Assembly (NCBI RefSeq): GCF_003002815.1
Contig: NZ_PVTF01000002.1
Location: 620,001-684,000, forward strand
DNA: 64,000 bases
Direction: 5' to 3'
DNA from: Umezawaea tangerina
GTDB taxonomy: Bacteria > Actinomycetota > Actinomycetes > Mycobacteriales > Pseudonocardiaceae
Shown: piece by piece, positions 6,969 through 57,525 of the stretch
Numbering within the stretch: position 1 is the first letter of the stretch
Layout: every line of letters begins with the position of its first letter
Made by a program: the position numbers and the translations under genes
The notes under the pieces: model-generated
Seen by the model: only the letters and a program-made list of their open reading frames with translations
Told to the model about the DNA's origin: nothing
Database searches by the model: none

Positions 6969-7262
6969 CTACTTGACCAGGGCCACCCGGATCGCGACCC
7001 CGTTCTGCCTGCCGGCGTCGAGGTTGTAGTCGACCGAGACGGTCCAGTTGTTGTTGAACGCGTCGCGCAGCAGGTCGAGCATGCCCTGCCGGACGGGCCG
7101 GTTGCCGTCGTTGCGGAGCTGGAACCCCATCGCCCGGTTGGGCTCCGTGTTGAGCTTGAGGATCGCCTCGGTGTCGAGGAAGTCGGTCGGCGGGCCGAAG
7201 CCGCCGCCGACGTCGTGCACACGAAGGAAAGTGAGCTTCCCAGTGGTCTGCAGCAGTGCCAT
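6969..7262 (-). CDS. Small protein equal to the C-terminal domain of the neighbouring M64 peptidase
   Basis: The 97-residue protein aligns end to end with residues ~295-387 of the M64-type peptidase encoded just upstream. Shared pieces are TTG(K/R)L(T/S)FLRVHD, GFGPP(T/S)DFLD, (N/D)TEP-R-(A)MGFQLR/AFGFQLR, DGN, GMLD-LR-AF and the ending IRVA. About half the positions agree. It lacks the catalytic part, so it is a duplicated, free-standing accessory domain, probably beta-rich and ligand-binding. The ATG at 7262 has AAGGAG 6-8 bases upstream, and the start lies 19 bases after the peptidase stop, so the two are co-transcribed. No signal peptide is visible. Function unknown. Confidence 0.75.
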   Translation of the reverse strand: MALLQTTGKLTFLRVHDVGGGFGPPTDFLDTEAILKLNTEPNRAMGFQLRNDGNRPVRQGMLDLLRDAFNNNWTVSVDYNLDAGRQNGVAIRVALVK

Positions 7263-7281
7263 GTCCATCTCCTTCAACACT

Positions 7282-8445
7282 TCAGGGGAGGTCGGCGACC
7301 CTGATGAGGACGCCGTTGTCGATGCCGGTGCGCCGGTAGTCCAGCCGGACCGGGTGGTTGCGCGCGAAGGCGGTGCGCAGGGTGTCGAGCATGCCCTTGC
7401 GCGCGCCCTCGTTGCCGTCGTCGCGCAACTGGAACCCGAAGGCCCGGCCGGGCTCGGTGTCGAGCCGGACGACGACCTCGACGTCGAGGAAGTCCGACGG
7501 CGGGCCGAACCCGGTGCCCCGGTCGTGCACGCGCAGGAACGACAGCCTGCCGGTGGTCTCCGCCACCAAGGGGAGGAACGGGTTGAGCACCTGGCGGATC
7601 CGCCGGGTGCAGACCGCGCAGTACGGCTTGTCCAGCTCGCGCATCCGACAGGTGAACTGCGGGCGGAAGGCGCCGCAGTGGAAGTGGTCCGCGCCTTCGA
7701 ACGCGCCCACCGCGTTGGCCGGCAACCCGGTGGGCGGGCTCGTCCTCGGGTCGCACTTCGAGCAGTCGGGGTTCGACGTCGTCGGCAGCGGGGTCGACGA
7801 CGCGACGAGGTCCCGCCACTTGAGGGCCGCCCGGTCGATCGTGGTGGTCACGTTCGCCTGCGCGGGCTCCCCCGCCGGGTGCTGGTTGTGGTCGGTCTCC
7901 TTGCCGCAACCCAGGAGGTACTCGTACTCGTCGGCGAGCCCGAACGCGGTGTGCCCCATCTCGTGCAGGGCGATCTCCTCCGCGTCGGTCGCCAGCGAGT
8001 ACACCGCCACTCCCCCGCCGGACCCGCCGTACTTCGTCGAGTTCACCACCACGATGATCATGTGCCATTGCGGCACCTGGGCGCGGGCGACCTCGAACGC
8101 GGTGTTGTTGTTCACCACCAGCAGCCGGTCGATCTTGTCCGAGCAGAACGTCGAGTCGAAGTACGTGGCGGGTGTCGCCCCCGTGCCACCGCACAGCGTC
8201 GGGTCGTCGGCGCCGCTGTCGGTCGACGCGACGTCGACCCGGAACACGTTGATCGCCTGCCTCAGCGTGGAGAACGGAGCGGAGGTCAGGAGCTTGTCCG
8301 TGAACGACTTCACGTCCGCGGCGTACTGGGTGAGCTCCGCCTCCCGGTACCCGTCGCCCATCACCACCAGGTTCCACCGCGTCGCCGGGTCGCCCGCGTC
8401 CACAACCTTGGTGGTCCCGACGACCCTGCCGTCCTTGGTCGTCAC
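7282..8445 (-). CDS. M64 (IgA-peptidase-like) zinc metallopeptidase
   Basis: The 387-residue protein carries a metzincin-like zinc site HEMGHTAFGLADEY beginning at His161 (ligands His161 and His165, catalytic Glu162), in the form typical of family M64. The N-terminal part holds the conserved VVMGDGYRE stretch (28-34), and several paired cysteines (CSKC near 228, PYCAVC near 275) follow the active site. Residues ~295-387 form a separate domain that is duplicated as the next gene. The GTG start at 8445 overlaps the upstream stop (GTGA). No export signal is obvious, which is odd because characterised M64 members act outside the cell. The substrate is unknown. Confidence 0.85.
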   Translation of the reverse strand: MTTKDGRVVGTTKVVDAGDPATRWNLVVMGDGYREAELTQYAADVKSFTDKLLTSAPFSTLRQAINVFRVDVASTDSGADDPTLCGGTGATPATYFDSTFCSDKIDRLLVVNNNTAFEVARAQVPQWHMIIVVVNSTKYGGSGGGVAVYSLATDAEEIALHEMGHTAFGLADEYEYLLGCGKETDHNQHPAGEPAQANVTTTIDRAALKWRDLVASSTPLPTTSNPDCSKCDPRTSPPTGLPANAVGAFEGADHFHCGAFRPQFTCRMRELDKPYCAVCTRRIRQVLNPFLPLVAETTGRLSFLRVHDRGTGFGPPSDFLDVEVVVRLDTEPGRAFGFQLRDDGNEGARKGMLDTLRTAFARNHPVRLDYRRTGIDNGVLIRVADLP

Positions 8446-8876
8446 GACGCACCCCCGCGTCCCAGCGGGAACCGGGCCAGCTCGGTCGCCGTCGCGCCCT
8501 CTGCCCGCACCGCGGCGGCACCGAGCCCGCTCATGAACGACAGGTGGTCCGCCTGCTCCAGATCCGGCACCAGCACGGCGAAGCTCCCCCTCGCCCTGCT
8601 CACCGGCGCCCGCCGCAACGACGGCCCCGACGCGTCGCCGAACACCTCCACCGTCTCCCCCAGGTCCGACGGCAGCACCCGCCGGTGCAGTGCGCGACCG
8701 TCCACATCGCACACCTCCACCCACACCCCCAGGTGGTCCTCGTACCCGTCCAGCCGGTCCGTCGGCGGCACCAGCACGTCCACCGGCTCGTTCGACAACA
8801 TCCGCAGCCCCCGCTCCGCGAACTCGAAGATCAACCGCACCGCACCCCGCCCCCGCGGCTCTACCCCCTCATCCAC
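8442..8876 (-). CDS. Unknown protein, partner of the M64 peptidase
   Basis: This 144-residue protein is unlike anything I can name. It looks like a small beta-rich protein with segments such as VRLIFEFAERG, LGVWVEVCDVDG, RVLPSDLGETVEVFG and GSFAVLVPDL. There is no signal peptide, membrane span or metal motif. Translation couples directly into the peptidase gene (GTGA overlap), so it probably works with it, for example as an inhibitor, chaperone or targeting factor; that is inference. A GTG a few codons downstream could be the true start. Confidence 0.6.
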   Translation of the reverse strand: MDEGVEPRGRGAVRLIFEFAERGLRMLSNEPVDVLVPPTDRLDGYEDHLGVWVEVCDVDGRALHRRVLPSDLGETVEVFGDASGPSLRRAPVSRARGSFAVLVPDLEQADHLSFMSGLGAAAVRAEGATATELARFPLGRGGAS

Positions 8877-9510
8877 GCCGATCCCTCCCCCACAACGCTC
8901 TCGCGCCCACCAACGACCCCATGCCCACTCCCCTCCTGCAGTGCCTCACCTCTAAGGCGTTCCAGTCCTGTTCCACCCCGTTCCACGGGGTGTTCGGGGC
9001 GGGATGGACGAACCAGGCTTGGTGGCGCAAGTCGGGCGGGTGAGGCAGACGGGCGGGCGGTGAGGCAGGCGGAACTGGGCTGAACAGTTCGAAGTCGGGC
9101 AGCGAGAGCGGGGAGAACCGGGAAGGGCAGGACGAACCTGGGCAGTAGGGGGAAACAAGGCCAGGCGTCACGAAGCCGGGCAGCCGAGTGGCCTAGCTGA
9201 GCGGGCGGCACCAGGCCGCTGGCGAGGCGGGAGACATGAGGCTAGACAGCCTGGGGCGGACGGGGGGGGTGAGGGGCATGCGTCGGGCCGGGCAGGCGAG
9301 ATCGGGGTGGCGAGGTGGATCGATCGGGGTGGGCAACCCGGCGTCGGGCTGCCAGGGCGGACGCCTAGGTAGGCGACACAAGGCCAGGCAGCCACGGCGA
9401 AAGGTGGGGGGAACGGCATGACATCAGGCCGGACACGCATGGCAGGGGACACGAGGCCAGGCAGCCAGGCGAACGGGGGTGAACGGCGCGACCTCAGCCG
9501 GGTACGCATG

Positions 9511-9566
9511 GCCGGGCAGGTGAGGCCGGGCAGGTGAGGCCGGGTAAGTGAGGCCGGGCAGGTGAG
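9511..9566. repeat. Four tandem 14-bp repeats
   Basis: The unit GCCGGGCAGGTGAG occurs at 9511, 9525, 9539 (with two changes, GGTAAG in place of GCAGG-type bases) and 9553. It is part of the G-rich island. Confidence 0.9.
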
Positions 9567-9774
9567 GTGGAGATCGGGGCGGGCGGCACGGTGTCGGGCT
9601 GCGAAGGCAGACGAGCGAGGTGGGTGACAAGAGGCTGGTATGCGAAGCGGGCAGGTCGGGGGCGGGAGATGCGGAGTGGGGTCGGAGGGAGAGGTGGGAC
9701 TGGGTGAGGCGCGGTTAGGCAGGCGGGGTGGGCGAGTGGCGGGTGGGCGGGTGACGGGCGAGTGGTGGTGTGGG

Positions 9775-9919
9775 GTGAGGTGATCGACAGGAGGGGTTGA
9801 GGGGTGAGGTGATTGGCGGGAGGGGGTGGGGCGTGAGGTGATCGGCGGGAACGGGTGCGGGGTGAGGTGATTGGCGGGAACGGGTGCGGGGTGAGGTGAT
9901 CGGCGGGAACGGGTGAGGG
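9775..9919. repeat. Five tandem 29-bp repeats
   Basis: Units start at 9775, 9804, 9833, 9862 and 9891, each opening with GTGAGGTGAT and continuing with (C/T)GGCGGGAACGGGTGCGGG in the best copies. Copies 3-5 differ at only one or two positions, while copies 1-2 are more diverged, so the array has been growing from one side. Confidence 0.92.
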
Positions 9920-9946
9920 GCGCGGTGAGGAGTGGGGGCGGGGCGG

Positions 9947-9980
9947 GGTGAGCGGTCGGGCGCGGTGAGCGGTCGGGCGC
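9947..9980. repeat. Two perfect 17-bp tandem repeats
   Basis: GGTGAGCGGTCGGGCGC occurs at 9947-9963 and 9964-9980, followed by decayed copies to about 10010. Confidence 0.9.
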
Positions 9981-10184
9981 GGTGAGGAGCGGGGTGAGGC
10001 GAGGGGTCGGGCGCGGTGGGAAGGGTGGCTGTGGAAGGAAAATCGGTTGCTGTGGTTGTTTGATCGGCGGACTATCGGGGGACCGAGTCAGTGCCCCAGC
10101 CCGCAGCACGATGGCCCACCCGACCAGGTCTCGGCCCGCGCGCGACGGGGCTTCCGCACGGAGCCGGTTGGCCCGTGCACCGCG

Positions 10185-10210
10185 CCCCGCCGGGCTCTCC
10201 CCCGGCGGGG
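10185..10210. terminator. Hairpin downstream of the IclR gene
   Basis: CCCCGCCGGG at 10185-10194 pairs perfectly with 10201-10210 across a 6-base loop. It lies about 65 bases past the stop of the minus-strand IclR gene and may end its transcript. No T-run is present. Confidence 0.45.
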
Positions 10211-10275
10211 TCGCTGTCTTGTAGTACTGGTGCATGGTGCTGTTCGTGGCATCGGTGCGTTCAGGCTGTGCGGGC

Positions 10276-11115
10276 TTAAGCCTGCGAGTCGGACGAGCGT
10301 CGTGCGCCTAGTTCTCGCGAGATGCTTCGTGCGGCGGTCTGCACCGCCAGGCCCAACCGTCGTGGCTGCGCGACTCGCTTGGGTACCAACACACCCAGCA
10401 CTCCGACCACCTCGTCGTCCTTCCCGAACACCGGGGCGGCCACCGACACGATGGTCTCCGCTTCCTCCACCCGGCGGAAGATGGCCAGTCGTTCCCGTCG
10501 TACCTCGGCCAGCGTTCGGCGGAGGAAGTCGGGGGTGATGAGGTGGTTGTCGGGTTCGCTGTAGACGGGTTTGGCGAGCAAATCCTCTTGTACTTCGCGT
10601 GGGGCGAAGGCGAGTAGGGCGAGGCCGACGCCGGTGGAGTGGAGGGGCAGTCGGCCGCCGATGCGGTAGTCGACGGGGGCGGCTTGGGGGGCGGAGAGGC
10701 GTTCTACGAGCATGGCCTGCATGCCGTCGCGGACGGCGAGCTGGACGTGTTGGCGGGTGACCTCGGCGAGGTCGTGCATGAACGGCAGGGCGACCTGGCG
10801 GAGGCCGTGGCCGCGTGGGGCGAGGGTGGCGACCTCCAACAGGCGCAGGCCGACGCAGTAGCGGCCCGCGGGGTCGCGTTCCAGGGCGCCCCAGCCCACC
10901 AGCCTGGTGGCCAACCGCAGGGCGGAGCTGGGGGGCATGTCGGCGCGGCGGCTCAGTTCGCCCAAGGTGAGCGTGCGGTGGTCGGCGTCGAACGCGGCCA
11001 ACAACGACAGCGCCCGGTCGACGACCGGTTCGCCGTGTGCCGGGCGGCGGCCGCGGACGCGGACAGGAGGTGGTTGGTCGGCCTCCTGGGGCGGGGATTT
11101 TCCATTGGTTGGCAT
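10276..11115 (-). CDS. IclR-family transcriptional regulator
   Basis: The 279-residue regulator has an N-terminal winged helix at about 30-90 (VVDRALSLLAAF, LGELSRRADMPPSSALRLATRL) and an IclR effector-binding domain (about 105-279) with the familiar RLPLHSTGVGLALLAFA and SVAAPVFGKDDEVVGVLGV stretches. It is divergent from the MFS transporter gene at 11218 and probably controls the catabolic cluster to its right. The ATG at 11115 overlaps a 15-base motif (11100-11114) that recurs in the central divergent promoter of the cluster at 18938, suggesting autorepression plus pathway control. Confidence 0.92.
   Translation of the reverse strand: MPTNGKSPPQEADQPPPVRVRGRRPAHGEPVVDRALSLLAAFDADHRTLTLGELSRRADMPPSSALRLATRLVGWGALERDPAGRYCVGLRLLEVATLAPRGHGLRQVALPFMHDLAEVTRQHVQLAVRDGMQAMLVERLSAPQAAPVDYRIGGRLPLHSTGVGLALLAFAPREVQEDLLAKPVYSEPDNHLITPDFLRRTLAEVRRERLAIFRRVEEAETIVSVAAPVFGKDDEVVGVLGVLVPKRVAQPRRLGLAVQTAARSISRELGARRSSDSQA
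11100..11114. promoter_or_regulatory. Candidate IclR operator, copy 1
   Basis: TTCCATTGGTTGGCA covers the start codon of the IclR gene. The identical 15-mer is present at 18938-18952 between the two divergent transcripts of the same cluster. Confidence 0.55.
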
Positions 11116-11217
11116 CACCGCTGACCGTACCCCGCCTCGCCGCCCATCCTTCCCGCAAGTCAGGCGACGAACCACGGCACGTCCGGTCGCCGACCGCGAT
11201 GCGAAAGGTGCCCAACG

Positions 11218-12561
11218 ATGAGTACTTTCCTCTCCGGCGCGGACCACCCCGACCACACCGACCCGACCGACTCCACAACGACCGCCTCCACGACTGCCGC
11301 CTCCACGACGACCGCCGATGACACGGCCTGGCCGCAGCCCCAGGTGGGGTTCCTGTTCTTCCTGGGTTTCGCGGCGATCGGTGCCGCGATGGCGAACCTG
11401 GTGCCGCTCGTCCTGACCCTGTCGATCAAGGCGACCGCTATCGACCCCGAGGGCGCGACGACGATCGTGTCCATCGTGGCCGGTGTGGGCGCGTTGTTCT
11501 CGCTCGTCGCGTTCCCGGTGCTGGGCCGGATCAGCGACCGCACGACCTCGCGGCTGGGCAGGCGGAGGCCGTTCCTGCTGCTGGGCGCGGTGCTCGTCGC
11601 GGTCGGGTCGGTAGGGCAACTGCTGGCCGCGGGCACGTTCGGGTTGACGGCCGCGGGGGTCGTGACGGCGGTGGGGTTCAGCTCGGCGATCGTCGCCGTG
11701 ACGGCGGTGATCCCGGACCAGCTGGCGCCGCACCGGCGGGGACCGGCGTCGGCGATCGTGGGGCTGAGCCTGCCGGTCGGCGCGGTGGTCGGGCTGTTCA
11801 TCGCGCAGCTGGTCTCGCCGAACCTGCCCGCGATGATCCTGCTGCCCGCCGCCGTCGGCGTCGTCGGCTGCGTGCTGCTCGCCGCGGTGCTGCCCGACCG
11901 CAGGCTGGCCGCGGCCGAGCGGCCGCCGTTCGGCGCGCGGGAGCTGTTGGGCACGTTCTGGGTGAACCCGTTGCGCGACAGGGACTTCGCCTGGGCGTGG
12001 CTGAGCCGTCTGCTGATCTTCCTCGGGGTCGCGGCGATCCAGGCGTACCAGGCCTTCTACCTGATCATCGTGCTGCACTTCGCTCCGGCGGAGGTCGCGG
12101 GAGCGGTCTTCCTGTCCACGCTGGTGCTCACGGCCGCCGCGCTGCTGTTCGCCCCGGCCGCCGGGAAGGTGTCCGACCGGGTCGGGCGGCGCAAGCCGTT
12201 CGTGGTCACGGCGGCGCTGATCTTCGCCGCGGGTCTGCTGCTGGCGGCGTTCGCGGGCTCGTTCCCGGTGTTCCTGGTGGCGATGGGCGTGGTCGGGCTC
12301 GGTCAGGGCGTGTACTTCGCGGTCGACATCGCGCTGGTGACGCAGATCCTCCCGGACCCGGCCAACCCGGCGAAGGACCTCGGCCTGATGAACATCGCGA
12401 ACACCCTGCCCGCCTCGATCGTTCCCGCGCTGGCGCCCGCGATCCTGTCGGTCAGCGCCACCGCCGAGGCACCGCAGAACTTCGCGGCGCTGTTCACGTT
12501 CGGCGCGGTCGCGGGTCTGCTCGGAGCGGTGCTGATCCTGCCGATCCGCAAGGCGAAGTGA
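11218..12561 (+). CDS. MFS sugar/glycoside transporter
   Basis: The 447-residue transporter has a Thr/Asp/Ser-rich cytoplasmic tail (1-35) followed by about 12 membrane spans. The loop 2-3 signature SDRTTSRLGRRRPF ends near residue 119 and is echoed by SDRVGRRKPF in the second half. The LGRRRPF form is typical of the glycoside/sucrose-type MFS branch (GPH and SLC45-like proteins). It is the first gene of a plus-strand operon with GH3 and esterase genes; its stop overlaps the GH3 start by one base (TGATG). It most likely imports the intact glycoside that the next gene cleaves inside the cell. Regulation by the divergent IclR protein is inferred. Confidence 0.88.
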   Translation: MSTFLSGADHPDHTDPTDSTTTASTTAASTTTADDTAWPQPQVGFLFFLGFAAIGAAMANLVPLVLTLSIKATAIDPEGATTIVSIVAGVGALFSLVAFPVLGRISDRTTSRLGRRRPFLLLGAVLVAVGSVGQLLAAGTFGLTAAGVVTAVGFSSAIVAVTAVIPDQLAPHRRGPASAIVGLSLPVGAVVGLFIAQLVSPNLPAMILLPAAVGVVGCVLLAAVLPDRRLAAAERPPFGARELLGTFWVNPLRDRDFAWAWLSRLLIFLGVAAIQAYQAFYLIIVLHFAPAEVAGAVFLSTLVLTAAALLFAPAAGKVSDRVGRRKPFVVTAALIFAAGLLLAAFAGSFPVFLVAMGVVGLGQGVYFAVDIALVTQILPDPANPAKDLGLMNIANTLPASIVPALAPAILSVSATAEAPQNFAALFTFGAVAGLLGAVLILPIRKAK

Positions 12562-48413: not shown

Positions 48414-48833
48414 ATGGTCGTCATCGCGTCTGGAGTGGGAGTCGTGCCCGTCGCGCAGGTTCGGGCGTGGACGCGGGGGCTGGTGCGGTTCGCGGTTGTC
48501 GGGGTGGTGAACACGGGGTTGTTCCTGGTGCTCTACCTGGTGTTGCGGATGGCGTTGCCTGCCGTGGTGGCGAGCGTGGTGGCGACCGGGGTGACCACGG
48601 TGACGGGGACGGTGGTGAACGGGCGGGTGACGTTCGGGGTGGGGGCGGTCGGGGTGGTGGGGCATCTCAAGAGCCTGGTGGTGACCGGGCTCGGGGTGGG
48701 GGTGACGTCCGGCGCGGTGGGGCTGGTGGGTGGGGGTGCGGCGGACGAGGTCGTGGTGCTGGTGGTGGCGAGTGCGGTGGTGGGGCTCCTGCGGTTCGTG
48801 CTCATGGGGTGCTGGGTGTTCCGGGCGGTGTGA
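48414..48833 (+). CDS. GtrA-family membrane protein
   Basis: The 139-residue protein has four hydrophobic segments in the GtrA pattern, starting with LVRFAVVGVVNTGLFLVLYLVLR and including a TVVNGRVTFG loop. The family moves polyprenyl-linked sugars or acts in cell-wall glycosylation. ATG 48414 or GTG 48444 may be the start. Its end overlaps the convergent dehydrogenase gene by 32 bases. Valine and glycine are heavily used, even for a membrane protein. Confidence 0.75.
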   Translation: MVVIASGVGVVPVAQVRAWTRGLVRFAVVGVVNTGLFLVLYLVLRMALPAVVASVVATGVTTVTGTVVNGRVTFGVGAVGVVGHLKSLVVTGLGVGVTSGAVGLVGGGAADEVVVLVVASAVVGLLRFVLMGCWVFRAV

Positions 48834-49602
48834 CGGACAGGCGGGTGAGCAGGGTGTGGGTGGCGGTGGAGATGGTGGGGTCGATGCCGAGGTCGGTGAG
48901 CATTTCGGTGGCGGCGGCCATCTCGTGGGCGCGGCGGACGGCGTGCTGGTGGGTGCCGGTGACGAGCCGGTCGACCGTGGACGCGTCGGCGCGGGTCAGC
49001 TCGTCGACGATGTTGTCGCGCAGCCAGTTCTCGCAGCCGGCGGCGCGGCCGGCTGCGAGCGCTTCGACGACGGCCGCGGCGAGGCCCTTGAAGAAGACGC
49101 TGCGCAGCAGCTTGCGCTGGGCGGCGAGCCCGGCGGGGCCGTCGAGCACCTCGACCGACGCGCCCAACGCCGTCAGGATCCGCGCCACCTCGACAGCGCC
49201 GGGACCGCTAGCGCTCATCGGTGTGCGCAGCCCACGACCGGGCACCGGGGCCATGATCGCGACGTCGGCGAACGCGACACCACGCTCTCCGGCGATCTCG
49301 GCGAGCCGAACCTTCGTACCGGGTGAGGCGGTGTTCAGGTCGGCCCACAGACCCGCACCGACCGCCGCGACACCCGCACGCAGCGCGTCGACGGACGCCT
49401 GCGCGCTGTTCACGCTGAGCACGAGATCGGCACCGGTCACCGCGTCGGCCTCGTCCACCGCCGCGGTCGTGCCGTCCGGCGCGGACACGGCCGGGTCGTA
49501 GGCGCGGACCGCGGCACCAGCGGCCACGAGGTCACGGGCGATCGCACCGCCCGCCTCGCCGAGTCCGAGCACGGCCACCGTCACGGGCTTCGAGGTCGTC
49601 AC
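48802..49602 (-). CDS. 6-phosphogluconate/3-hydroxyisobutyrate-dehydrogenase-like protein (DUF1932 type)
   Basis: The 266-residue protein has the Rossmann motif VAVLGLGEAGGAIA (10-22) and the family's LVLSVNSA, LWADLNTASP and FADVAIMAPVPGRG. The C-terminal helical domain has KLLRSVFFKGLAAAVVEALAAG with the catalytic Lys region. This is the beta-hydroxyacid dehydrogenase superfamily with the DUF1932 C-terminus. The substrate is unknown. A palindrome ATTGTCAACAAT lies 30 bases upstream of its GTG start and is a likely operator of a GntR-type regulator. Confidence 0.87.
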   Translation of the reverse strand: MTTSKPVTVAVLGLGEAGGAIARDLVAAGAAVRAYDPAVSAPDGTTAAVDEADAVTGADLVLSVNSAQASVDALRAGVAAVGAGLWADLNTASPGTKVRLAEIAGERGVAFADVAIMAPVPGRGLRTPMSASGPGAVEVARILTALGASVEVLDGPAGLAAQRKLLRSVFFKGLAAAVVEALAAGRAAGCENWLRDNIVDELTRADASTVDRLVTGTHQHAVRRAHEMAAATEMLTDLGIDPTISTATHTLLTRLSVTPPGTPSTP

Positions 49603-49643: not shown

Positions 49644-49780
49644 TCCGACCTACCGAAGACGAACCAGCCCAGGCGTGCACCCGGTCGTCGGACGACCGGA
49701 TGTCGACGCGCGGCGTGCTCCGAATGGCGGTAAGGTCACCGCGGTTCGTTGTTGATCAACTCCCGGAAGAGGCTTACCAC

Positions 49781-50353
49781 GTGGACACCTTGCAGGCAGG
49801 GCAGAACCTCGCCGTCGGCCAGCAGCTCGACTCCGAGAACGGGTACGTGCTCGCTCTGCAGGACGACGGCAACCTGGTGCTGAAGGACGGCAGCGACGTC
49901 GTCTGGGCGACCGGCACCAACGGTTCCGGCGCGACCAGCGCCACCCTGCAGGACGACGGCAACTTCGTCCTCTACACCGCCTCCGGCAACGTCGCCTGGG
50001 CGAGCGACTCCAGCGGCAACCCCGGCTCCCGCCTCGTGCTGCAGTCCGACCGCAACCTGGTCGTCTACAACTCGAACGGCTCCAGCACCTGGGCGTCGGG
50101 CACCAACACCGACAACCCCCGCCCCACCCAGACCCAGGCCCCCGCCCCCACCGAGGCCCCCGCCCCCGCCGCCGAAGCCGCCCCCGCCGCCCCGGCCGAG
50201 CAGCACTGGACCGTCGACCCCGGCGACACCCTGTGGGCCATCGCCGAGAAGGTCTACGGCGACGGCAACCAGTACCAGCGCATCGCCGACGCCAACGGCA
50301 TCTCCAACCCCGACCTCATCAGCGTCGGCCAGGACCTCGTAATCCCCGCCTAA
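49781..50353 (+). CDS. B-lectin (mannose-binding type) plus LysM protein without signal peptide
   Basis: The 190-residue protein has a monocot-type mannose-binding B-lectin prism (1-110) with all three QxDxNxVxY sites: QDDGNLVLK (27-35, Tyr to Lys), QDDGNFVLY (57-65) and QSDRNLVVY (88-96). A Pro/Ala linker (about 112-140) leads to a LysM domain (143-189, WTVDPGDTLWAIAEKVYG). The GTG at 49781 has AGAGG 8 bases upstream. No signal peptide precedes the lectin, so export, if any, must be unusual. A perfect 14-bp hairpin follows the stop. Confidence 0.87.
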   Translation: MDTLQAGQNLAVGQQLDSENGYVLALQDDGNLVLKDGSDVVWATGTNGSGATSATLQDDGNFVLYTASGNVAWASDSSGNPGSRLVLQSDRNLVVYNSNGSSTWASGTNTDNPRPTQTQAPAPTEAPAPAAEAAPAAPAEQHWTVDPGDTLWAIAEKVYGDGNQYQRIADANGISNPDLISVGQDLVIPA

Positions 50354-50835: not shown

Positions 50836-51789
50836 TCAAGGCACCAGCACAACCCTCCCCCGAACCACCCCCGCCTCCTGCCTCTCCCAAGCCCCCGTCA
50901 CCTCCCCCAGCTCCACCACCTCATGCGCCACCACCAGCTCCCCCCGCGCCACAGCCCCGGCCACCACCCCCACGGCCTCCCCTTGCTGCGCCCCCGTCAG
51001 CTCCTTGTTCGTATACCCCAACAACCTCAACGACCGCCCGTACAACACCGCCGCGTCCAACGGACACGTCCTCCCCGCGCTGGCCCCCAGGGTCACCATC
51101 CGCCCCCCAGCCCTCAACGTGTGAGCCGCAGCAGCGGCCGGCACCCCGAACAACGGATCCAAAACCAGATCCGCCGCCCCGTCACACGCCGCCAGGAACC
51201 GCCCCACCAGCTCCATGTGATCCGACGTGTCGAGCGCCACCACCGCATCCGCCCCAGCCGCCGCAGCCCGAGTCCGCGCCTCCGCCGACCGAGCAGCCGC
51301 CACCACCCTCCGCGCACCCGCGAGCCTCGCCAGCTGAACAGCCGCCTGCCCGACGACCCCTCCCGCGCCAAGCACCACGACCTGCTCCCCCGCCACCAGC
51401 TCCCCGCGCCACGTCATCGCCATGTGCGCGGCGACAGCGGACAACCCGGCGGCGGCCACCAGCACCGGGTCCACCCCGTCGGGCAGCTCCACGAGATCCG
51501 ACCGACGGGCCACCGCCGCGCCGGCCATGCTCCCGTCGCCCGGTTCCATCCCCGCCGAGGTCGGGAACCACACCAGGCGCCCGTCGACCGTGCCGACCCC
51601 TTGCACCCCTGGCACGTAGGGCGTCCGCGGCACCCCGAAGTACGACTTGCCGCCCGCGCACAGCACGTCCAACGGCGTCACCGGCGCGGCCACGACCTCG
51701 ACCACAACCTCGCCGTCCCCGGCGCGGGGGACCTCCCGGTCCACCACCACCGGCGCCACCCCCGGCAGCCTGATCTCCGCCGCCCGCAT
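50836..51789 (-). CDS. MDR-type quinone oxidoreductase (zinc-free alcohol-dehydrogenase family)
   Basis: The 317-residue protein has the MDR fold: an N-terminal GroES-like domain (TPLDVLCAGGKSYFGVPRTPYVPGVQGVG) and the NADPH-binding VVVLGAGGVVGQAAVQLARLAGA. Structural-zinc cysteines are absent, so it is a quinone-reductase/enoyl-reductase type. It is the distal gene of the LigAB operon, two bases after the LigA stop. It may reduce a quinone or an unsaturated ring-cleavage intermediate. Confidence 0.88.
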   Translation of the reverse strand: MRAAEIRLPGVAPVVVDREVPRAGDGEVVVEVVAAPVTPLDVLCAGGKSYFGVPRTPYVPGVQGVGTVDGRLVWFPTSAGMEPGDGSMAGAAVARRSDLVELPDGVDPVLVAAAGLSAVAAHMAMTWRGELVAGEQVVVLGAGGVVGQAAVQLARLAGARRVVAAARSAEARTRAAAAGADAVVALDTSDHMELVGRFLAACDGAADLVLDPLFGVPAAAAAHTLRAGGRMVTLGASAGRTCPLDAAVLYGRSLRLLGYTNKELTGAQQGEAVGVVAGAVARGELVVAHEVVELGEVTGAWERQEAGVVRGRVVLVP

Positions 51790-51791
51790 GC

Positions 51792-52151
51792 TCACGTGCT
51801 GATGTCCGGGTAGGGCATCTCCACGTGCGCCAGCCTCCGCGCGTACTCCAGCTGGAACCCGAGCCCCTCGTGGTCCCGTTCGAACATCGCGATGAACAGC
51901 GTCAGCGTCAGGAACGGGTGCGCCCCCATCGCGAACAGCGCCGGGTAGTCGTGCGTCCGCAGCGCCTCGCGCTCGGCCTCCTCGAAGGCGAGCCACGTGG
52001 ACCGCTCGTCGTCCACGCAGTTGAGGATCCGGTTCGCGTACTCCGCCTCCCACCACTCCACCGTGCCCACGGGGTCCTCGCGGTAGCGCTCCACGAGGTC
52101 CTGGTCCCGGTCCACGGTGTAGAGGAACTTGTCCAGCAGGTACTTGCTCAT
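51792..52151 (-). CDS. LigA-like small subunit of an extradiol dioxygenase
   Basis: The 119-residue all-helical protein fits the LigA family, the alpha subunit of protocatechuate 4,5-dioxygenase. LDKFLYTVDRDQDLVERYREDP and EREALRTHDYPALFAMGAHPFLTLTL follow the known pattern that lids the catalytic subunit. The ATG overlaps the stop of the LigB gene (ATGA). It makes no iron contact itself but shapes substrate specificity. Confidence 0.85.
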   Translation of the reverse strand: MSKYLLDKFLYTVDRDQDLVERYREDPVGTVEWWEAEYANRILNCVDDERSTWLAFEEAEREALRTHDYPALFAMGAHPFLTLTLFIAMFERDHEGLGFQLEYARRLAHVEMPYPDIST

Positions 52152-53011
52152 CGCGCACCGCCCTCGGGGTACCAGGTGAAGTAGGCCTCCATCGTGTGGA
52201 ACAGGTCGTAGGTGTCGACGTAGTCGGCCTTCCGGCCGTCGCCCGCCACGCCCATCATCAGCATGAAGTCCATGAACCCGTGGGTGGCGTTGCCCGGCAG
52301 GTGCAGGCTCTCCAGGCTGACCTCGGCCAGGCACTGCTCGATGTCACCGCCCGCGATCCACTCGACGGCCTTGCGGTCGAACTCCGGGTCCGGCCCGTGC
52401 GGACCGAACTGCCGCGGCCCGCCCAGCTCCAGCGACAGGTGCCCGGTGCCGATGACGGCGACCCGCTGGTCCGACGGCCAGGACTCGATCAGCTCGCGGA
52501 TGGTCCGCCCGAGCTGCACGAACCGCTTCGGCTGCGGCAGCGGCGGTGCGAAGATGTTGGTGTAGACGGGAACGATCGGCAGGTCGGCCTCGGGCCGCAG
52601 CGTGATGATCGGGCACGTGATCGAGTGGTCGATCCGCAGCTCGTTGGAGAACGCCAGGTCGAACCCGGCGTCCAGGCCCTCGCGCAGCACGTACGCCGAC
52701 AGGTCCTCCTGCCCCTTGAGGACCATCCTCGGCAGCCCGAACTCGCGTTCCTCGTTCGCCCAGTTCGCGTCGTAGAACGGCGCCTTGCCGACCAGGAACT
52801 GCGGCATGTTGTCCAGCCACAGCTGGTGGAAGTGGTCCGAGCCCACCATCACGAGCACGTCGGGCCGCGCCTTGGTGAGCGTCTCGCGGAACGCCTCGAC
52901 CTTGCGCACCCACTCATCGGCGAACGGCGGCCGGTCCTCCCCCGTCGACGTGCTGGCGCGGTAGTAGAACGGGTGGTGCGTGGACGCGATGACCGCGACC
53001 AGTTCAGCCAT
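52148..53011 (-). CDS. LigB-like catalytic subunit of an extradiol ring-cleavage dioxygenase
   Basis: The 287-residue protein is the class III extradiol dioxygenase catalytic subunit. Iron ligands are expected as His12 or His13 (ASTHHPF) and His60 (GSDHFHQ), with a late Glu near GDIEQCLAEVSLE. SNELRIDHSI and GTGHLSLELGG are further family landmarks, with a catalytic His in the latter. It splits a catechol-type ring (protocatechuate, gallate or a similar compound) beside its hydroxyls. ATG 53011 overlaps the citryl-CoA-lyase-like gene by 8 bases. Confidence 0.9.
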   Translation of the reverse strand: MAELVAVIASTHHPFYYRASTSTGEDRPPFADEWVRKVEAFRETLTKARPDVLVMVGSDHFHQLWLDNMPQFLVGKAPFYDANWANEEREFGLPRMVLKGQEDLSAYVLREGLDAGFDLAFSNELRIDHSITCPIITLRPEADLPIVPVYTNIFAPPLPQPKRFVQLGRTIRELIESWPSDQRVAVIGTGHLSLELGGPRQFGPHGPDPEFDRKAVEWIAGGDIEQCLAEVSLESLHLPGNATHGFMDFMLMMGVAGDGRKADYVDTYDLFHTMEAYFTWYPEGGAR

Positions 53012-53822
53012 GCCGACCTCCGGTGCTCGACTCGGGTGACTGGGGATCCGGTGGGACGGATGCGTTGTTGAGGTCGACCGACAGGAAGATGTCGTTGCCG
53101 ACGGGGTGGCGGATCTCCTCCGCGAGCTGCCCGATGAGCCCGGCCGTGCGGGCCAGCAGCGCGAACGCCCGCAGCAGCTCCAGCGGCAGCCCGAGGTCGG
53201 CCAGCGCCGCGCCGCAGGTGCCCGCGCCGTTGAGGGGCAACGTCTTGCCGAGCACCTGCGGGTGGACGCGGCCGATGGCGGCGAACAGCGCGAGGTGCGG
53301 ACCCCGCACACCTTCCTCGGCGGCGATCGCGAACAGCCGGGGTGTGCGCGGGTCGCCCTCCTTGTGCACGTGGTGGCCGAGTCCGGGGACGAACCTCCCC
53401 TTCTCCCGCTGGTCGCGCACGGCGGTCAGCGCGAGGGCGTCCCACCCCTCGTCGTCGGTCGGCAGGCCACCGTCCACTCCGGACAGCACGTCGTGCAGGA
53501 ACCGGCCGCAGTCCTCGGTCACGCCGAGGAAGCGCGAGCCGCCGCCGAGCAGACCCGCGGCGAGCGCGCCCTGCACGGAGTCCGGCGCGGACAGGTAGGT
53601 CAGCCGGGTCACGATCGCCGTGGGCGTGAACCCGTGGTCGGCCAGTGCGGCCAGCACGGCCTCGAACACCCTGGTCTCGCCGGGGGTCGGCCTGCGCTGG
53701 GTGGCCAGCCAGAAGGCCAGCTCGCCGAACCCGACGCTGCCCATGACGTCGTCGGCGAGGTCCTGGCCGAGCAGCGTGATCGTCTTCAGGCTGGAGGCGC
53801 CCAGCGCCGTCGGGTAGGTCAC
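53004..53822 (-). CDS. Citrate-synthase-fold lyase (citryl-CoA-lyase-like)
   Basis: The 272-residue protein is only the large-domain part of citrate synthase, the size of citryl-CoA lyase and of the lyase module of ATP-citrate lyase. It has H63 (LADHGFTPT), LAAGLLGGGSRFLG (the lyase-type version of the synthase SGPLHGG, with no His there), GLGHHVHKEGDPRT (His150, Asp157, the CoA/substrate loop) and IFLSVDLNNA. The missing His argues against synthase activity and for cleavage. It lies between a family III CoA-transferase and LigB, so it may cleave a CoA-activated ring-fission product. Confidence 0.83.
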   Translation of the reverse strand: MTYPTALGASSLKTITLLGQDLADDVMGSVGFGELAFWLATQRRPTPGETRVFEAVLAALADHGFTPTAIVTRLTYLSAPDSVQGALAAGLLGGGSRFLGVTEDCGRFLHDVLSGVDGGLPTDDEGWDALALTAVRDQREKGRFVPGLGHHVHKEGDPRTPRLFAIAAEEGVRGPHLALFAAIGRVHPQVLGKTLPLNGAGTCGAALADLGLPLELLRAFALLARTAGLIGQLAEEIRHPVGNDIFLSVDLNNASVPPDPQSPESSTGGRHG

Positions 53823-54994
53823 GCGTCCTCGCCCTTCGCCAGCCACGTCCGCAGCTCCTCGCCGTGCTCGTCGAGCAGCGGTGGCGGCAGCTCGTAGCCG
53901 ACCGGCGTCGCCGAGAACCGGATGGGGTGCCGGGTGGTCGGCACCGCGCGGTCGCCCTCGCCCACGACGACGACCGGGTCCAGCTCGAACCGCTCGGCCA
54001 TCGCGAAGCCGCCGTCGATGGTGTTGATCGGCCCGCACGGCACACCGGCCGCCACGAGCAGGTCGAACCACTCCAGCGCACCCCTGGTCCGGAGCCGTTC
54101 GACCAGCACGGGGCGCAGCTCGTCGCGGCGTTCGGTGCGGTCGGCGTTGCGGGCGTAGCGCGGGTCGTCGGCGACCTCGGGGATGCCGAGCACCTCGCAC
54201 AGCTTGCGGAACTGGCCGTCGTTGGCGGCGGTGACGATCAGGTCGTTGTCCGCGGTCGGCAGCGCCTCGTAGGGGAAGACGCTCGGGTGCGCGTTGCCCA
54301 TCCGGAACGGGACCACGCCCGCCGCGACGTAGGCGGAGCTGTGGTTGACCAGCCCGGTCAACGCCGACGAGAGCAGGTTGACCTCCACGTGCTGGCCCTC
54401 GCCAGTGGCGTCGCGGTGCCGCAGCGCGGCCAGCACGCCGATCGTGGCATGGTTGCCCGCCATCACGTCGAACACCGAGATCCCGGCCCGGAACGGCGGG
54501 CCGTCGGGGTCGCCGGTGAGGCTCATCAGCCCGGACATGGCCTGCACCATCAGGTCGTAGCCGGGCACGTCCTTGCCCGCGCCGGAGCCGAACCCGCTGA
54601 TGGAGGCGTAGACGACGCCGGGGTTGGTCGCGCGGACCGCCTCGAAGTCCAGCCCGTACTTGGCCATGCCGCCGGGCTTGAGGTTCTCGATCACCACGTC
54701 CGCGCGCCGGGCCAGCTCGCGGGCCACCTCGACGTCGGCCTCGTCGCGCAGGTCCAGTGCGATGGACCGCTTCCCGCGGTTGATCCCCAGGTAGTAGGTG
54801 GACACGCCGTCGCGGACCGGTGGCGTCCACGTTCGGGTGTCGTCGCCCTTCGGGCCCTCGACCTTGACCACCGAGGCGCCCATGTCGGCGAGCAGCATCG
54901 TGGCGTAGGGCCCGGCGAGGATCCGGGAGAAGTCGGCGACCAGGACCCCGGCCAGCGGTCCCGCGGACTTCCCCGGCAGTTCGGTCTCGACCAT
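53819..54994 (-). CDS. Family III CoA-transferase (CaiB/BaiF/Frc)
   Basis: The 391-residue protein has the family signature: VLVADFSRILAGPYATMLLADMGASVVKVE near the start, VIENLKPGGMAKYGLD, and the catalytic Asp147 in PGYDLMVQAMSGLM. Late PCGPINTI and GHxxF-like parts complete it. It moves CoA from a donor such as succinyl-CoA to a carboxylate. ATG 54994 is the likely start. The stop is coupled to the lyase gene (GTGA), so the two probably act in sequence: activation then C-C cleavage. Confidence 0.92.
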   Translation of the reverse strand: MVETELPGKSAGPLAGVLVADFSRILAGPYATMLLADMGASVVKVEGPKGDDTRTWTPPVRDGVSTYYLGINRGKRSIALDLRDEADVEVARELARRADVVIENLKPGGMAKYGLDFEAVRATNPGVVYASISGFGSGAGKDVPGYDLMVQAMSGLMSLTGDPDGPPFRAGISVFDVMAGNHATIGVLAALRHRDATGEGQHVEVNLLSSALTGLVNHSSAYVAAGVVPFRMGNAHPSVFPYEALPTADNDLIVTAANDGQFRKLCEVLGIPEVADDPRYARNADRTERRDELRPVLVERLRTRGALEWFDLLVAAGVPCGPINTIDGGFAMAERFELDPVVVVGEGDRAVPTTRHPIRFSATPVGYELPPPLLDEHGEELRTWLAKGEDA

Positions 54995-55075
54995 GCAGCC
55001 ATTCCCGCCGTCCTGCGGACACACGTCCGCTGGACGGATTGTGCGCACCGCCTCCCCGGTGCGTCAAGGCTCGGG

Positions 55076-55885
55076 TCAGGCCGAGGACACCGTCACGTGC
55101 GGGACGGTCTCCAGCCGCGCGAAGTCCGCGCTGATCTCCCCCGCGGCCTGGAGCAACAGCGGCAGGTGGTGCTCGACCAGGTACTCCACCGAGGTCTCGG
55201 CGGCGTGGCAGTTCACGTTCACGCCCGCGATGACGCGACCGGACCCGTCGCGGACCGGTGCGGCGACCGAGCGGATGCCCAGCGTGAGCTGCTCGTCGGT
55301 CAGCGCCCAGCCGCGTGCGCGCACCTCGCGCAGCGCGGCGTCGCGCTCGGCGCGGTCGGGCCGCCAGCGCGGGACCAGGCCGGAGCGGGTCGGCTCGGCG
55401 AGCACCCGTTCCAGCTCGTCGGGCGGCAGCGCGGCCAGCTGCACCTTGCCCAGCGACGTCGGCAGCGCCGGGAACCGGGTACCGATCTGCACCGCGAGCG
55501 ACACGATCTTGGGCACGGCGACCCTGGCCACGTAGACGATGTCCGAGCCGTCGAGCTGGGCGATCGAGCACGACTCGTCGGTCCGCTCGACCAGCCTCTC
55601 CAGGTGCGGCCTCGCCACGTCCCACAGGCCCATCGACCGCACGTAGGCCACGCCGAGCTCGAGCACCCGCGGGGTCAGCGAGTAGCCGCGGTCGGCCGCC
55701 CGCACGTAGCCCAGCTCCTCCAGCGTCAGCAGGATCCGGCGCGCGGTCGGCCGGGCGAGGCCCGCGGCGGAGGCCACCTCGGCGAGCGTCATCACCGGGC
55801 AGCCCGGCCGGAAGACCGCGATGACCTCCAGCCCGCGCGCGAGCGCCTCGATGAAGTCCGGACCCGTTCCCTCACGTGGCACCAC
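55076..55885 (-). CDS. IclR-family regulator (PcaR/PobR type)
   Basis: The 269-residue regulator has a winged helix (EALARGLEVIAVF, MTLAEVASAAGLARPTARRILLTLEELGYV) and an IclR sensor with PTSLGKVQLAALPPDEL, GWALTDEQLTLGIRSVAAPVRDGSG and VNVNCHAAETSVEYL, typical of regulators of protocatechuate catabolism. GTG 55885 (or 55882) follows GGAGG at good spacing. It lies upstream of the LigAB/CoA operon on the same strand and is divergent from the amidohydrolase. It probably controls both through the palindrome at 56042. Confidence 0.92.
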   Translation of the reverse strand: MVPREGTGPDFIEALARGLEVIAVFRPGCPVMTLAEVASAAGLARPTARRILLTLEELGYVRAADRGYSLTPRVLELGVAYVRSMGLWDVARPHLERLVERTDESCSIAQLDGSDIVYVARVAVPKIVSLAVQIGTRFPALPTSLGKVQLAALPPDELERVLAEPTRSGLVPRWRPDRAERDAALREVRARGWALTDEQLTLGIRSVAAPVRDGSGRVIAGVNVNCHAAETSVEYLVEHHLPLLLQAAGEISADFARLETVPHVTVSSA

Positions 55886-56041
55886 GCGCCTCCCCTCCTG
55901 CTGGTCCGGGTCAGCGTAACCCCCGCTGTCCGCGAGGCGGACGAGGTGAACCGCGAGCCGTTCACCACCGAGTCGGCGGCCGTCATTGACACTGGTCGGG
56001 CAGAGGTTCAGAGTGACCGGCACAACCCGTTGACCGTTGGT

Positions 56042-56055
56042 CGGACAGTTGTCCG
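56042..56055. promoter_or_regulatory. Palindrome CGGACA-GT-TGTCCG, probable IclR operator
   Basis: Perfect 6-base arms lie 22 bases upstream of the amidohydrolase start in the divergent promoter. Flanking GGTCGG and CCGGACAG repeats extend the motif. Confidence 0.5.
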
Positions 56056-56076
56056 GACAGTGAGGGAGCGACGACG

Positions 56077-57525
56077 ATGCCGCAGCCATCCGACGAGGTG
56101 TCGAGCCGACCGGTCGTGTTCCGGGGCGGCACGGTGCTCACCGTGAACGCCGCGCACGATGTGCTCACCGACCACGACGTGCTCGTGGTCGGGGACAGGA
56201 TCGCCGCCGTCGGCCCCGCGCTGTCGGTGCCCGAGGGGACCGTCGAGATCGACGCGTCCGGCGGCGTCGTGATGCCCGGCATGATCGACACCCACCGGCA
56301 CATGTGGCAGACGGCGATGCGCGGCTACGGCGCCGACTGGACGCTGACCCAGTACTTCGTCTGGTACTACCTGGAGTGGGGCAAGGTCTTCCGGCCGGAG
56401 GACATCCACGCGGGCAACCTGCTCGGCGCGGCCGAGGCGCTCGACGCGGGTGTCACGACGACCGTCGACTGGTCGCACGGCCTCCAGACCACCCAGCACG
56501 CCGAGGCCGCCGTCGAGGCCCTGCGGGCCGTGCCCGGCCGGTTCGTGCTGGCCTACGGCAACATCCAGGACGCCCCGGCGAACTGGACCGGCACGCCCGA
56601 GTTCCGCGACTTCGCCGCCCGGCACATGGGCGGCGACGGCCTGCTCGGCTTCCAGCTGGCCTTCGACGTCACCGGCGACCCGGCGTTCCCGGAGAAGCCC
56701 GCGTTCGAGGTGGCCCGCGAGCTGGGCGTCCCGGTCACCACCCACGCGGGTGTCTGGGGCGCCACCGGCGACGACAGCATCCGGCTCATGCACGACCACG
56801 GCTTCATGACCCCGGAGACCGTCTACGTCCACGGCGCGTCCCTGTCGGCCGACTCCTACCACCGCATCGCCGCGACCGGCGGCTCCGTCTCGGTGTCGAC
56901 CGAGAGCGAGCAGAGCGCGGGCCAGGGCTACCCGCCCACCTGGGCCCTGCGCGCGCACGGCATCCCCGTGTCGCTGTCGATGGACACCTCGGTGTGGTGG
57001 AGCGGCGACCTGTTCTCCGCCATGCGGTCCACGCTCGGCGCCGACCGCTCCCGCGAGCACCTGGAGGCGCAGGCGAAGGGCGACACCGTCACGCACTCGT
57101 CGCTGCGCGCCCAGCAGGTGGTGGAGTGGGCGACCCTCGGGGGTGCCCGCGCGCTGGGCCGCGAGTCGGAGCTCGGCAGCGTCGAGGTGGGCAAGAAGGC
57201 CGACCTCGTGCTCATCAAGAACGACCACTCCCCCGTGTCGTTCCCGCTGCTCAACCCCTACGGCCACATCGCGTTCCAGGCGCAGCGCGCCGACGTGCAC
57301 ACGGTCGTGGTGAACGGCCGCGTCGTGAAGTCCGACGGCAGGCTGGTCGGCGTCGACCTCGGCGCCGTGCGCGCGAAGGTGGAGGACACCGTCGACCACC
57401 TCAGGTCCACGCTGGGCGAGGAGGCCTGGGCGAAGGGGATGAACCCGGACATCCCGACCCGCGAGGTGCTGGACAACCCCTACACCTACACCGACTACCG
57501 CAGCGGCAGCACGCACAGCGGCTGA
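56077..57525 (+). CDS. Amidohydrolase (chlorohydrolase/deaminase type, subtype III)
   Basis: The 482-residue enzyme has the TRZ/ATZ-like amidohydrolase plan. The N-terminal sheet ends in VVMPGMIDTHRHMWQ (His73, His75 as metal ligands). TTHAGVWG and VYVHGASL supply the next histidines, and LSMDTSVWW supplies the final Asp. The C-terminal part returns with GKKADLVLIKN. Such enzymes deaminate or dechlorinate N-heterocycles, or open rings. It is divergent from the LigAB/CoA operon and shares its promoter, so it likely makes the aromatic substrate of the ring cleavage from an amine or ether. Confidence 0.9.
   Translation: MPQPSDEVSSRPVVFRGGTVLTVNAAHDVLTDHDVLVVGDRIAAVGPALSVPEGTVEIDASGGVVMPGMIDTHRHMWQTAMRGYGADWTLTQYFVWYYLEWGKVFRPEDIHAGNLLGAAEALDAGVTTTVDWSHGLQTTQHAEAAVEALRAVPGRFVLAYGNIQDAPANWTGTPEFRDFAARHMGGDGLLGFQLAFDVTGDPAFPEKPAFEVARELGVPVTTHAGVWGATGDDSIRLMHDHGFMTPETVYVHGASLSADSYHRIAATGGSVSVSTESEQSAGQGYPPTWALRAHGIPVSLSMDTSVWWSGDLFSAMRSTLGADRSREHLEAQAKGDTVTHSSLRAQQVVEWATLGGARALGRESELGSVEVGKKADLVLIKNDHSPVSFPLLNPYGHIAFQAQRADVHTVVVNGRVVKSDGRLVGVDLGAVRAKVEDTVDHLRSTLGEEAWAKGMNPDIPTREVLDNPYTYTDYRSGSTHSG

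Follow-up and report, generated by a model that had tools for sequence, protein, structure and literature searches.

What becomes of an opened aromatic ring when an extradiol-type dioxygenase is encoded together with enzymes of CoA chemistry is the question raised by an operon of the actinomycete Umezawaea tangerina (genome size 10.68 Mb), which lies in a 64,000-nucleotide stretch of contig NZ_PVTF01000002.1 (positions 620,001 to 684,000, hereafter the window) and joins a LigA-like and a LigB-like gene to a family III CoA-transferase and a citrate-synthase-fold protein resembling citryl-CoA lyase (Table 1). The minus strand carries, in order, an IclR regulator, the transferase, the citryl-CoA-lyase-like protein (here the lyase), the LigB-like and LigA-like subunits and an MDR-family protein, with an amidohydrolase (AmdH) divergent on the plus strand. 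Transferase and lyase overlap by 4 bases, as do LigB and LigA, lyase and LigB overlap by 8, and 2 bases separate LigA from the MDR gene, in agreement with a preliminary description of this DNA that had placed every gene correctly, called the operon translationally coupled and recognised both the CoA-transferase and the citrate-synthase-fold protein. The chemistry proposed there, in which LigAB cleaves protocatechuate or gallate and the product 4-carboxy-4-hydroxy-2-oxoadipate (CHA) is loaded with CoA and split in the manner of citryl-CoA, is not supported. Instead, we read the genes as a self-contained module for the catabolism of a polyhydroxybenzene of the hydroxyquinol/pyrogallol class, in which LigAB-like ring cleavage would be followed by a CoA-dependent lower pathway, a reading whose substrate we infer and which we hold to be nearly, though not quite, probable.

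Operons in which ring cleavage is followed by CoA transfer and a citrate-synthase-fold enzyme are conserved across the Actinomycetota and also occur in rhizobia. The 86 loci on which the gene counts are based comprise the best 80 of at least 518 LigB relatives, obtained by comparing a LigB alignment with genome contigs, and six loci from plasmid searches; two LigAB plasmid loci with neither lyase nor transferase nearby (L041, L042) are omitted from this set, and including both would make the count 86/88. Transferase and lyase were present in all 86 loci, LigB, LigA and the IclR regulator in 85 each, AmdH in 80 and the MDR gene in 63, a co-occurrence far beyond chance. The module was likewise seen in seven of the eight loci L183-L190, where the genomes behind L184-L190 rank no closer than 'same phylum', and transferase and lyase were found together in six of nine rhizobial/Aminobacter loci, two of these six lacking an AmdH match. 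No paper listed by searches of open-licence literature seemed to describe the module.

The transferase finds its best NCBIfam match in succinate--glutarate CoA-transferase (366 bits, cut-off 750), falls below the cut-offs of all seven NCBIfam families that it matched and has 4ed9, 10uh and 9br7 as relatives in the PDB. The motif GYDL(M/I)VQA, which we take to hold the active-site Asp of family III CoA-transferases, occurs in 78 of the 86 loci; in 4 others GYD is followed by different residues, and in the remaining 4 the motif was not found. For AmdH, residues were surveyed in 104 loci, 98 with a match and 6 without: the metal ligands H73, H75, H223, H252 and D303 are kept in 96 of the 98 matches, the first two positions being uncovered in the other 2, and TTHAGVWGA or a one-letter variant of it is present in 95, with no deaminase-type Glu after the third His. 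Three distant matches are also Glu-less in the columns read, one of them being gapped. Presumably a catalytic Glu follows the third His in TRZ/ATZ deaminases, and AmdH was rejected as a deaminase, as the metal ligands fit and the required Glu does not. A role as dihydrophloroglucinol cyclohydrolase (DPGC) was rejected as well, since DPGC is assigned to a different family, the 'cyclase' family, where PMC10470551 treats it.

The LigB-like protein is recognised both by its Pfam family and by its fold, the best matches of its model (pLDDT 71) being the gallate dioxygenase DesB and LigAB (TM 0.74-0.81, 24-26% identity in the fold alignments); this model and that of the lyase (pLDDT 68) are of moderate confidence and were used for fold only. 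The pair thus has in common with these class III extradiol enzymes the fold, the two His ligands, the Asp-His pair, a LigA-type small subunit and the gene pair itself, with H12, H60, D128 and H129 retained. It differs at the position of Glu242, presumably the glutamate of the 2-His-1-Glu metal site in LigB/DesB, which is Gly245, at that of His195, which we take to be the acid/base His of extradiol cleavage in LigB, which is Leu194, and by a new histidine, His191. In a 59-row alignment, which includes second copies of a locus in 10 rows, position 191 is Gly or Ser in all 27 rows with the ligand Glu and His in all 31 rows without it (Gly there, except that one locus, present in two copies, has Gln), one DODA-type row being ambiguous at these positions. 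In every one of the 31 rows lacking the Glu, the acid/base His column holds Leu or Asn, and two Glu-bearing rows have Leu there as well, while the motif GNATHG, with Gly in the ligand Glu column, is found in 85 of 85 module loci. With both residues lost, LigAB chemistry of the known type, as assumed in the preliminary description, is not supported, although its LigB assignment stands. Its LigA label is weaker, as the small protein has no match in Pfam or NCBIfam scans; its profile matches one built from small subunits of LigB relatives (98.6% by hhalign, E 5e-16) and reaches 43% against one single LigA. Further Glu-less LigB-like clades with His191 exist in other gene contexts (L043:8001-8876, L151:8001-8870, L191:9149-9988), and in L191 the neighbours of the gene include a CoA-transferase together with an Amidohydro_2 protein and an MDR-type dehydrogenase, and nothing there matches the lyase.

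The lyase has the citryl-CoA lyase 6hxp as its best match by sequence and by fold, passes the cut-off of its NCBIfam subfamily and shares both catalytic His motifs with citryl-CoA lyase and the ATP-citrate lyase core, but differs from them in that LNVDG has become LNGAG, which puts Ala at the essential Asp. This Asp is absent from all 86 module loci (85 by motif, L040 by direct reading), and among 18 diverse relatives it is kept in 5, the other 13, with the window's among them, having Ala, Thr or Ser. Asp-keeping lyase-like relatives are L196, L198, L199, L200 and L203 (28-42% identity), and in four of them a family III CoA-transferase is close by. For human ATP-citrate lyase (ACLY), the passages of PMC10115795 concerned with the mutant call D1026 essential, with acetyl-CoA formed by the wild type and not by D1026A, which forms citryl-CoA, and they conclude that the citrate-synthase-homology domain has an allosteric and not an essential catalytic role. 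Considering this allosteric role, the missing Asp hints at altered chemistry but does not prove it.

The class of substrate is suggested by what takes the place of the LigB-like gene in related genomes. Of the 298 genomes searched within the order, 51 encode a near-full-length lyase with 81% identity or more, and 40 of these 51 together with the own genome make up a sample of 41. The LigB-like gene (1e-100) is present in 21 of these and a module-type intradiol dioxygenase (1e-100) in 19, with no genome having both and one (G037) having neither, a mutual exclusion with Fisher p 8e-11, phylogeny not corrected. Where the loci of LigB-less genomes were read (12 of 20), the intradiol-type dioxygenase was part of the module in 11 and there was none in L214. 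Its distance to the lyase is 6-1105 bases in all 19 genomes, compared with -4 to 41 bases between lyase and LigB in 20 of 20 genomes besides the own; in five it stands directly beside the lyase, in the LigB place, and in 14 about one gene further, after the MDR gene in the seven of these that were read. Between the window and the 11 exchanged loci that were read, the identities of AmdH, IclR, transferase and lyase range over 62-87%. The nearest solved relatives of the exchanged enzyme are PnpC (3n9t) and hydroxyquinol dioxygenase (1tmx) with 263 bits, whereas the best catechol 1,2-dioxygenase reaches 122. No hydroxyquinol-type dioxygenase was found in the window, and among the 86 loci a similar intradiol gene occurs once (L085, ~7.5 kb from LigB, 42% identical).

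A quick tree of 61 lyase rows (44 LigAB, 16 exchanged, 1 unlabelled) is weakly supported, with 29 of 58 inner branches open; on it, parsimony requires at least seven changes of dioxygenase type, three of them forced by starred branches. Shuffled labels need 14 changes on average, and as few as seven were obtained in 0 of 500 shuffles, so that the dioxygenase type is clustered on the tree, yet has switched several times; genus g54 alone contains both states (LigB in 3, the other dioxygenase in 2). Because one enzyme is replaced in place by a non-homologous one while regulator, AmdH, transferase and lyase are kept, both most simply perform the same step, and the LigAB-like pair is most likely an oxygenase that cleaves the ring to a product fit for the downstream enzymes which the exchanged dioxygenase also feeds. 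The products of a LigB-fold and an intradiol enzyme would coincide on a ring with three adjacent hydroxyls, or in case the LigB-like enzyme has turned intradiol.

What follows ring opening is indicated by a missing partner. No match to maleylacetate reductase (1e-40, query part 1-350) was obtained in 14 of the 19 exchanged genomes, the other 5 having matches, which makes a lower route bypassing maleylacetate reductase likely there; in 8 of the 41 genomes some first-look candidates were left unscored, none of these genomes being among the 14. Matches away from the module occur in 9 of the 21 LigB genomes, the own included. Although the dioxygenase type of the hydroxyquinol 1,2-dioxygenase/maleylacetate reductase pathway fills the LigAB place in 19 of 41 genomes, the exchanged module thus departs from that pathway both in the reductase left unmatched in the 14 genomes and in having an amidohydrolase, a CoA-transferase and a lyase. 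To this extent the CoA-dependent ending put forward earlier is retained, while the citryl-type cleavage of CHA is not.

For the polyhydroxybenzene module we propose that the transferase would put CoA, probably from succinyl-CoA, on the oxo-dicarboxylate from ring opening, and that the lyase-like enzyme would cleave the C-C bond beside the CH2 of the thioester to acetyl-CoA and a C4 acid. AmdH would hydrolyse a ring-fission intermediate, most likely in its lactone (pyrone) form, as the counterpart of LigI in the lig pathway, and the quinone would be kept reduced by the MDR protein, a possible quinone reductase, or in rhizobia by an FMN reductase. An NADPH-dependent FMN-reductase-like gene is located near rhizobial/Aminobacter modules (L039:6348-6920, L192, L194, L037, L193), where actinomycetes have MDR. 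Taking the hydroxyquinol-type relation together with the pyrogallol pattern leads to 1,2,3,5-tetrahydroxybenzene, the smallest ring showing both, as a specific guess that we regard as doubtful. In this compound the extradiol bond is also the intradiol bond, and it would be converted via 2,4-dihydroxymuconate (pyrone form 4-hydroxy-2-pyrone-6-carboxylate) to 2,4-dioxoadipate and 2,4-dioxoadipyl-CoA, whose hydrolytic cleavage would release oxaloacetate and acetyl-CoA, the same two products that citryl-CoA lyase forms. Such products would suit a citrate-synthase fold, and the pyrone form would explain the amidohydrolase. The bolder version, that a LigB-fold dioxygenase with a rebuilt, possibly three-His, metal site has converged on the hydroxyquinol-type intradiol reaction and feeds an undescribed retro-Claisen pathway to acetyl-CoA and a C4 acid run by an Asp-less citrate-synthase-fold enzyme, is in our view on balance unlikely, if still worth serious thought.

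Several observations weigh against the polyhydroxybenzene reading. As the Glu and His of LigB and the Asp of the lyase are lost, the chemistries assigned to these two proteins rest on context. The actinobacterial locus L187, the eighth of L183-L190 and near a contig end, has LigA and LigB only, and three rhizobial plasmids (L041, L042, L195) have LigAB, in each case with no transferase, lyase or AmdH in the stretch read; genome G048 has a second LigB-like copy (C9:7630-8481) on another contig than the lyase and the first copy. Identity to the window's AmdH falls to 29-34% in one Rhodococcus plasmid and in two rhizobia, and the top NCBIfam match of the exchanged enzymes is chlorocatechol 1,2-dioxygenase (149-168 bits, under the cut-off of 359). 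A conserved transporter or hydroxylase that might point to the substrate was not found, since, module genes and one spurious antisense frame (25) apart, none of the families occurred in more than 13 of 87 stretches. To these are added the other operons with lyase and transferase, and the further hydroxyquinol-type genes, on which the two best alternatives draw.

In the first of these, transferase and lyase would form a general cassette for CoA activation and cleavage, and LigAB or the intradiol enzyme would be interchangeable front ends for different rings with converging products. Judging by record annotations, lyase-transferase pairs without either dioxygenase indeed stand in quite other operons, with LeuCD in L034 and with acyl-CoA dehydrogenase and hydratases in L035, L036 and L038, and this pair has the strongest distance correlation (r 0.78, overall range r 0.47-0.78), such correlations being weak support because phylogeny is mixed in. 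Moreover, a further hydroxyquinol-dioxygenase-like gene is found elsewhere in 17 of the 21 LigB genomes (weak in G213, 36%) and in 4 of the 19 exchanged ones (G118, G127, G215, G237), G037 also having one; given these distant genes, the exclusion concerns the module-type gene and not the enzyme class, and the asymmetry fits an exchanged module serving hydroxyquinol and a LigAB module serving another ring. However, the exchange inside one genus favours a single substrate, and regulator, AmdH and transferase are conserved in exchanged loci, which leaves this explanation unlikely, albeit the best of the alternatives.

Alternatively, hydroxyquinol itself could be the substrate, with a LigAB-like enzyme that has turned intradiol and with maleylacetate converted to maleylacetyl-CoA and hydrolysed to acetyl-CoA and maleate, bypassing maleylacetate reductase. 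This would agree with the identity of the exchange partner, with the lack of a reductase match in the 14 exchanged genomes and with the loss of the ligand Glu and of the presumed extradiol acid/base His, with His191 present wherever the Glu is missing (31 of the 59 rows); a type I extradiol enzyme mutated at the equivalent His reportedly gave intradiol cleavage. Yet AmdH would be left without a role, 17 of the 21 LigB genomes have a hydroxyquinol-dioxygenase-like gene elsewhere, and in the own genome a gene of 640 residues (L220, G000:C6:433000-446000, 6728-8650, minus strand), which tells against the polyhydroxybenzene reading too, already consists of an iron-alcohol-dehydrogenase part and a hydroxyquinol-dioxygenase-like part. 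From place and sequence the first part may be a maleylacetate reductase; no NCBIfam model so named matched it. The module dioxygenase is 46% identical to this hydroxyquinol-dioxygenase-like domain, which suggests a different substrate, and we find hydroxyquinol as the substrate a somewhat more doubtful proposal than the cassette. A fusion of the same type occurs in genome G026, with 64% identity over nearly the full length.

That the LigAB-like pair is no oxygenase at all, being another metal enzyme (a hydrolase or lyase) or inactive, has the lost Glu and His in its favour but is very unlikely, considering its repeated replacement by a dioxygenase of known type, the fact that none of the 41 genomes has both and the strength with which the LigB-like protein is conserved, the highest in the module (median 91%, the loci themselves having been picked by LigB).

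Genes of a CHA route are present outside the operon. Besides the window's LigB-like protein, the own genome has two PF02900 proteins, by eye MhpB-like and DODA-like. A stretch at C2:371-375 kb, some 300 kb away from the operon, contains a CHA aldolase (311 bits against a PRK09262 cut-off of 179; TIGR02798 279-281, under the cut-off of 304.5), an oxalomesaconate tautomerase that scores at the cut-off of NF033377 (440), a type I extradiol dioxygenase that falls short of the TIGR03211 cut-off (287 against 320) and a LigJ-like amidohydrolase, which is named from its place and PF04909 score alone and has no NCBIfam match. At this CHA branch (L147, G000:C2:364000-382000, 7500-11278) a catechol-2,3-dioxygenase-like enzyme stands where LigAB would. 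Protocatechuate 3,4-dioxygenase beta is over cut-off in the genome as well. None of the 13 Amidohydro_2 and 4 LigK-profile places of the genome falls in the window, which bears out the reported lack of LigJ and LigK there, LigC and LigI not having been searched by their own families. The module therefore shares with the lig pathway the LigAB ring-cleaving fold and a member of the amidohydrolase superfamily, and differs from it in that the operon has no LigJ or LigK, with LigK, tautomerase and the LigJ-like gene placed elsewhere beside another dioxygenase. Of the LigIJK set whose co-regulated presence elsewhere the preliminary description had named as refuting its proposal, LigK and a LigJ-like gene were thus found (LigI was not searched), which answers that condition in part. 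As to its suggested check, whether the operon is conserved in genomes without LigI/J/K genes, CHA aldolase is over cut-off in 22 and not in 18 of the 40 other close-lyase genomes, so that the module is tied neither to its presence nor to its absence. Extradiol cleavage of protocatechuate or gallate with a citryl-CoA-type split of CoA-loaded CHA, which fits the fold, the gene order and the citrate-like character of a tertiary-hydroxy acid, is the least likely explanation of all, and CHA was ruled out as the substrate on the lost residues (the Glu242 and His195 equivalents, the lyase Asp) and on the CHA route elsewhere in the genome, the more so as neither an aldehyde dehydrogenase nor a LigJ-type hydratase was recognised in the module by Pfam/NCBIfam scans, the LigB-like gene swaps with an enzyme nearest to hydroxyquinol 1,2-dioxygenases, and a CoA-dependent split of CHA would yield acetyl-CoA together with 2,4-dioxoglutarate instead of pyruvate and oxaloacetate.

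A parallel in chemistry is the anaerobic phloroglucinol pathway (DPGC/TfD/TAL), which, in the account of it in PMC10470551, shares retro-Claisen chemistry on polyphenol-derived chains; it differs from the module in the family of its DPGC and in that no ring-cleaving oxygenase is described in that part of the source.

Among the module genes (Table 1), the true start of IclR is probably downstream of the first ATG, because the open frame from that ATG overlaps AmdH. Just downstream of the operon, window positions 49700-50353 encode a small protein that by eye has a repeated lectin-like stretch and a LysM-like C-terminal end, and 48802-49602 an NAD-binding DUF1932 protein, which is conserved with the operon in 0 of 86 loci. 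A neighbour of some Pseudonocardia loci and of Aminobacter, first taken as 'UroD-like', proved to be an accessory, methionine-synthase-like protein (PRK09121 262 bits, cut-off 392); its gene adjoins the module in L044, L049, L053, L104, L111, L115, L116, L123, L213 and L037 (Pseudonocardia-type, other actinomycetes and Aminobacter), and it is possibly a demethylase for methoxylated rings.

Table 1 Genes of the putative ring-cleavage module, with positions in the window and best profile evidence.
Feature	Position	Strand	Evidence
MDR-family quinone-oxidoreductase-like protein, accessory	50836..51789	-	TIGR02824 72 bits (cut-off 297)
LigA-like small subunit	51792..52151	-	profile match to small subunits of LigB relatives
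LigB-like large subunit, reworked metal site	52148..53011	-	PF02900 86 bits (cut-off 26.3)
Citryl-CoA-lyase-like protein (citrate-synthase fold, no catalytic Asp)	53004..53822	-	NCBIfam PRK06224.1-5 267 bits (cut-off 193)
Family III (CaiB/BaiF) CoA-transferase	53819..55048	-	PF02515 398 bits
IclR regulator, PcaR/PcaU type	55076..56089	-	TIGR02431 267 bits (cut-off 285)
AmdH, TRZ/ATZ-type amidohydrolase	56077..57525	+	PF01979 114 bits; best NCBIfam PRK08204 388 bits (cut-off 391)

The module raises the question of how catalysis by a LigB fold can do without the Glu ligand, and C-C bond cleavage by a citrate-synthase fold without the Asp, and the repeated swap of two unrelated oxygenases in one operon offers a direct route to identifying the substrate. 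If the reading as a polyhydroxybenzene pathway is true, the labels 'extradiol ring-cleavage dioxygenase' and 'citryl-CoA lyase' that such genes carry at present would be wrong, and the module would represent an undescribed end to polyphenol ring cleavage in probably hundreds of soil actinomycetes, given the at least 518 LigB-like relatives, and in some rhizobia.

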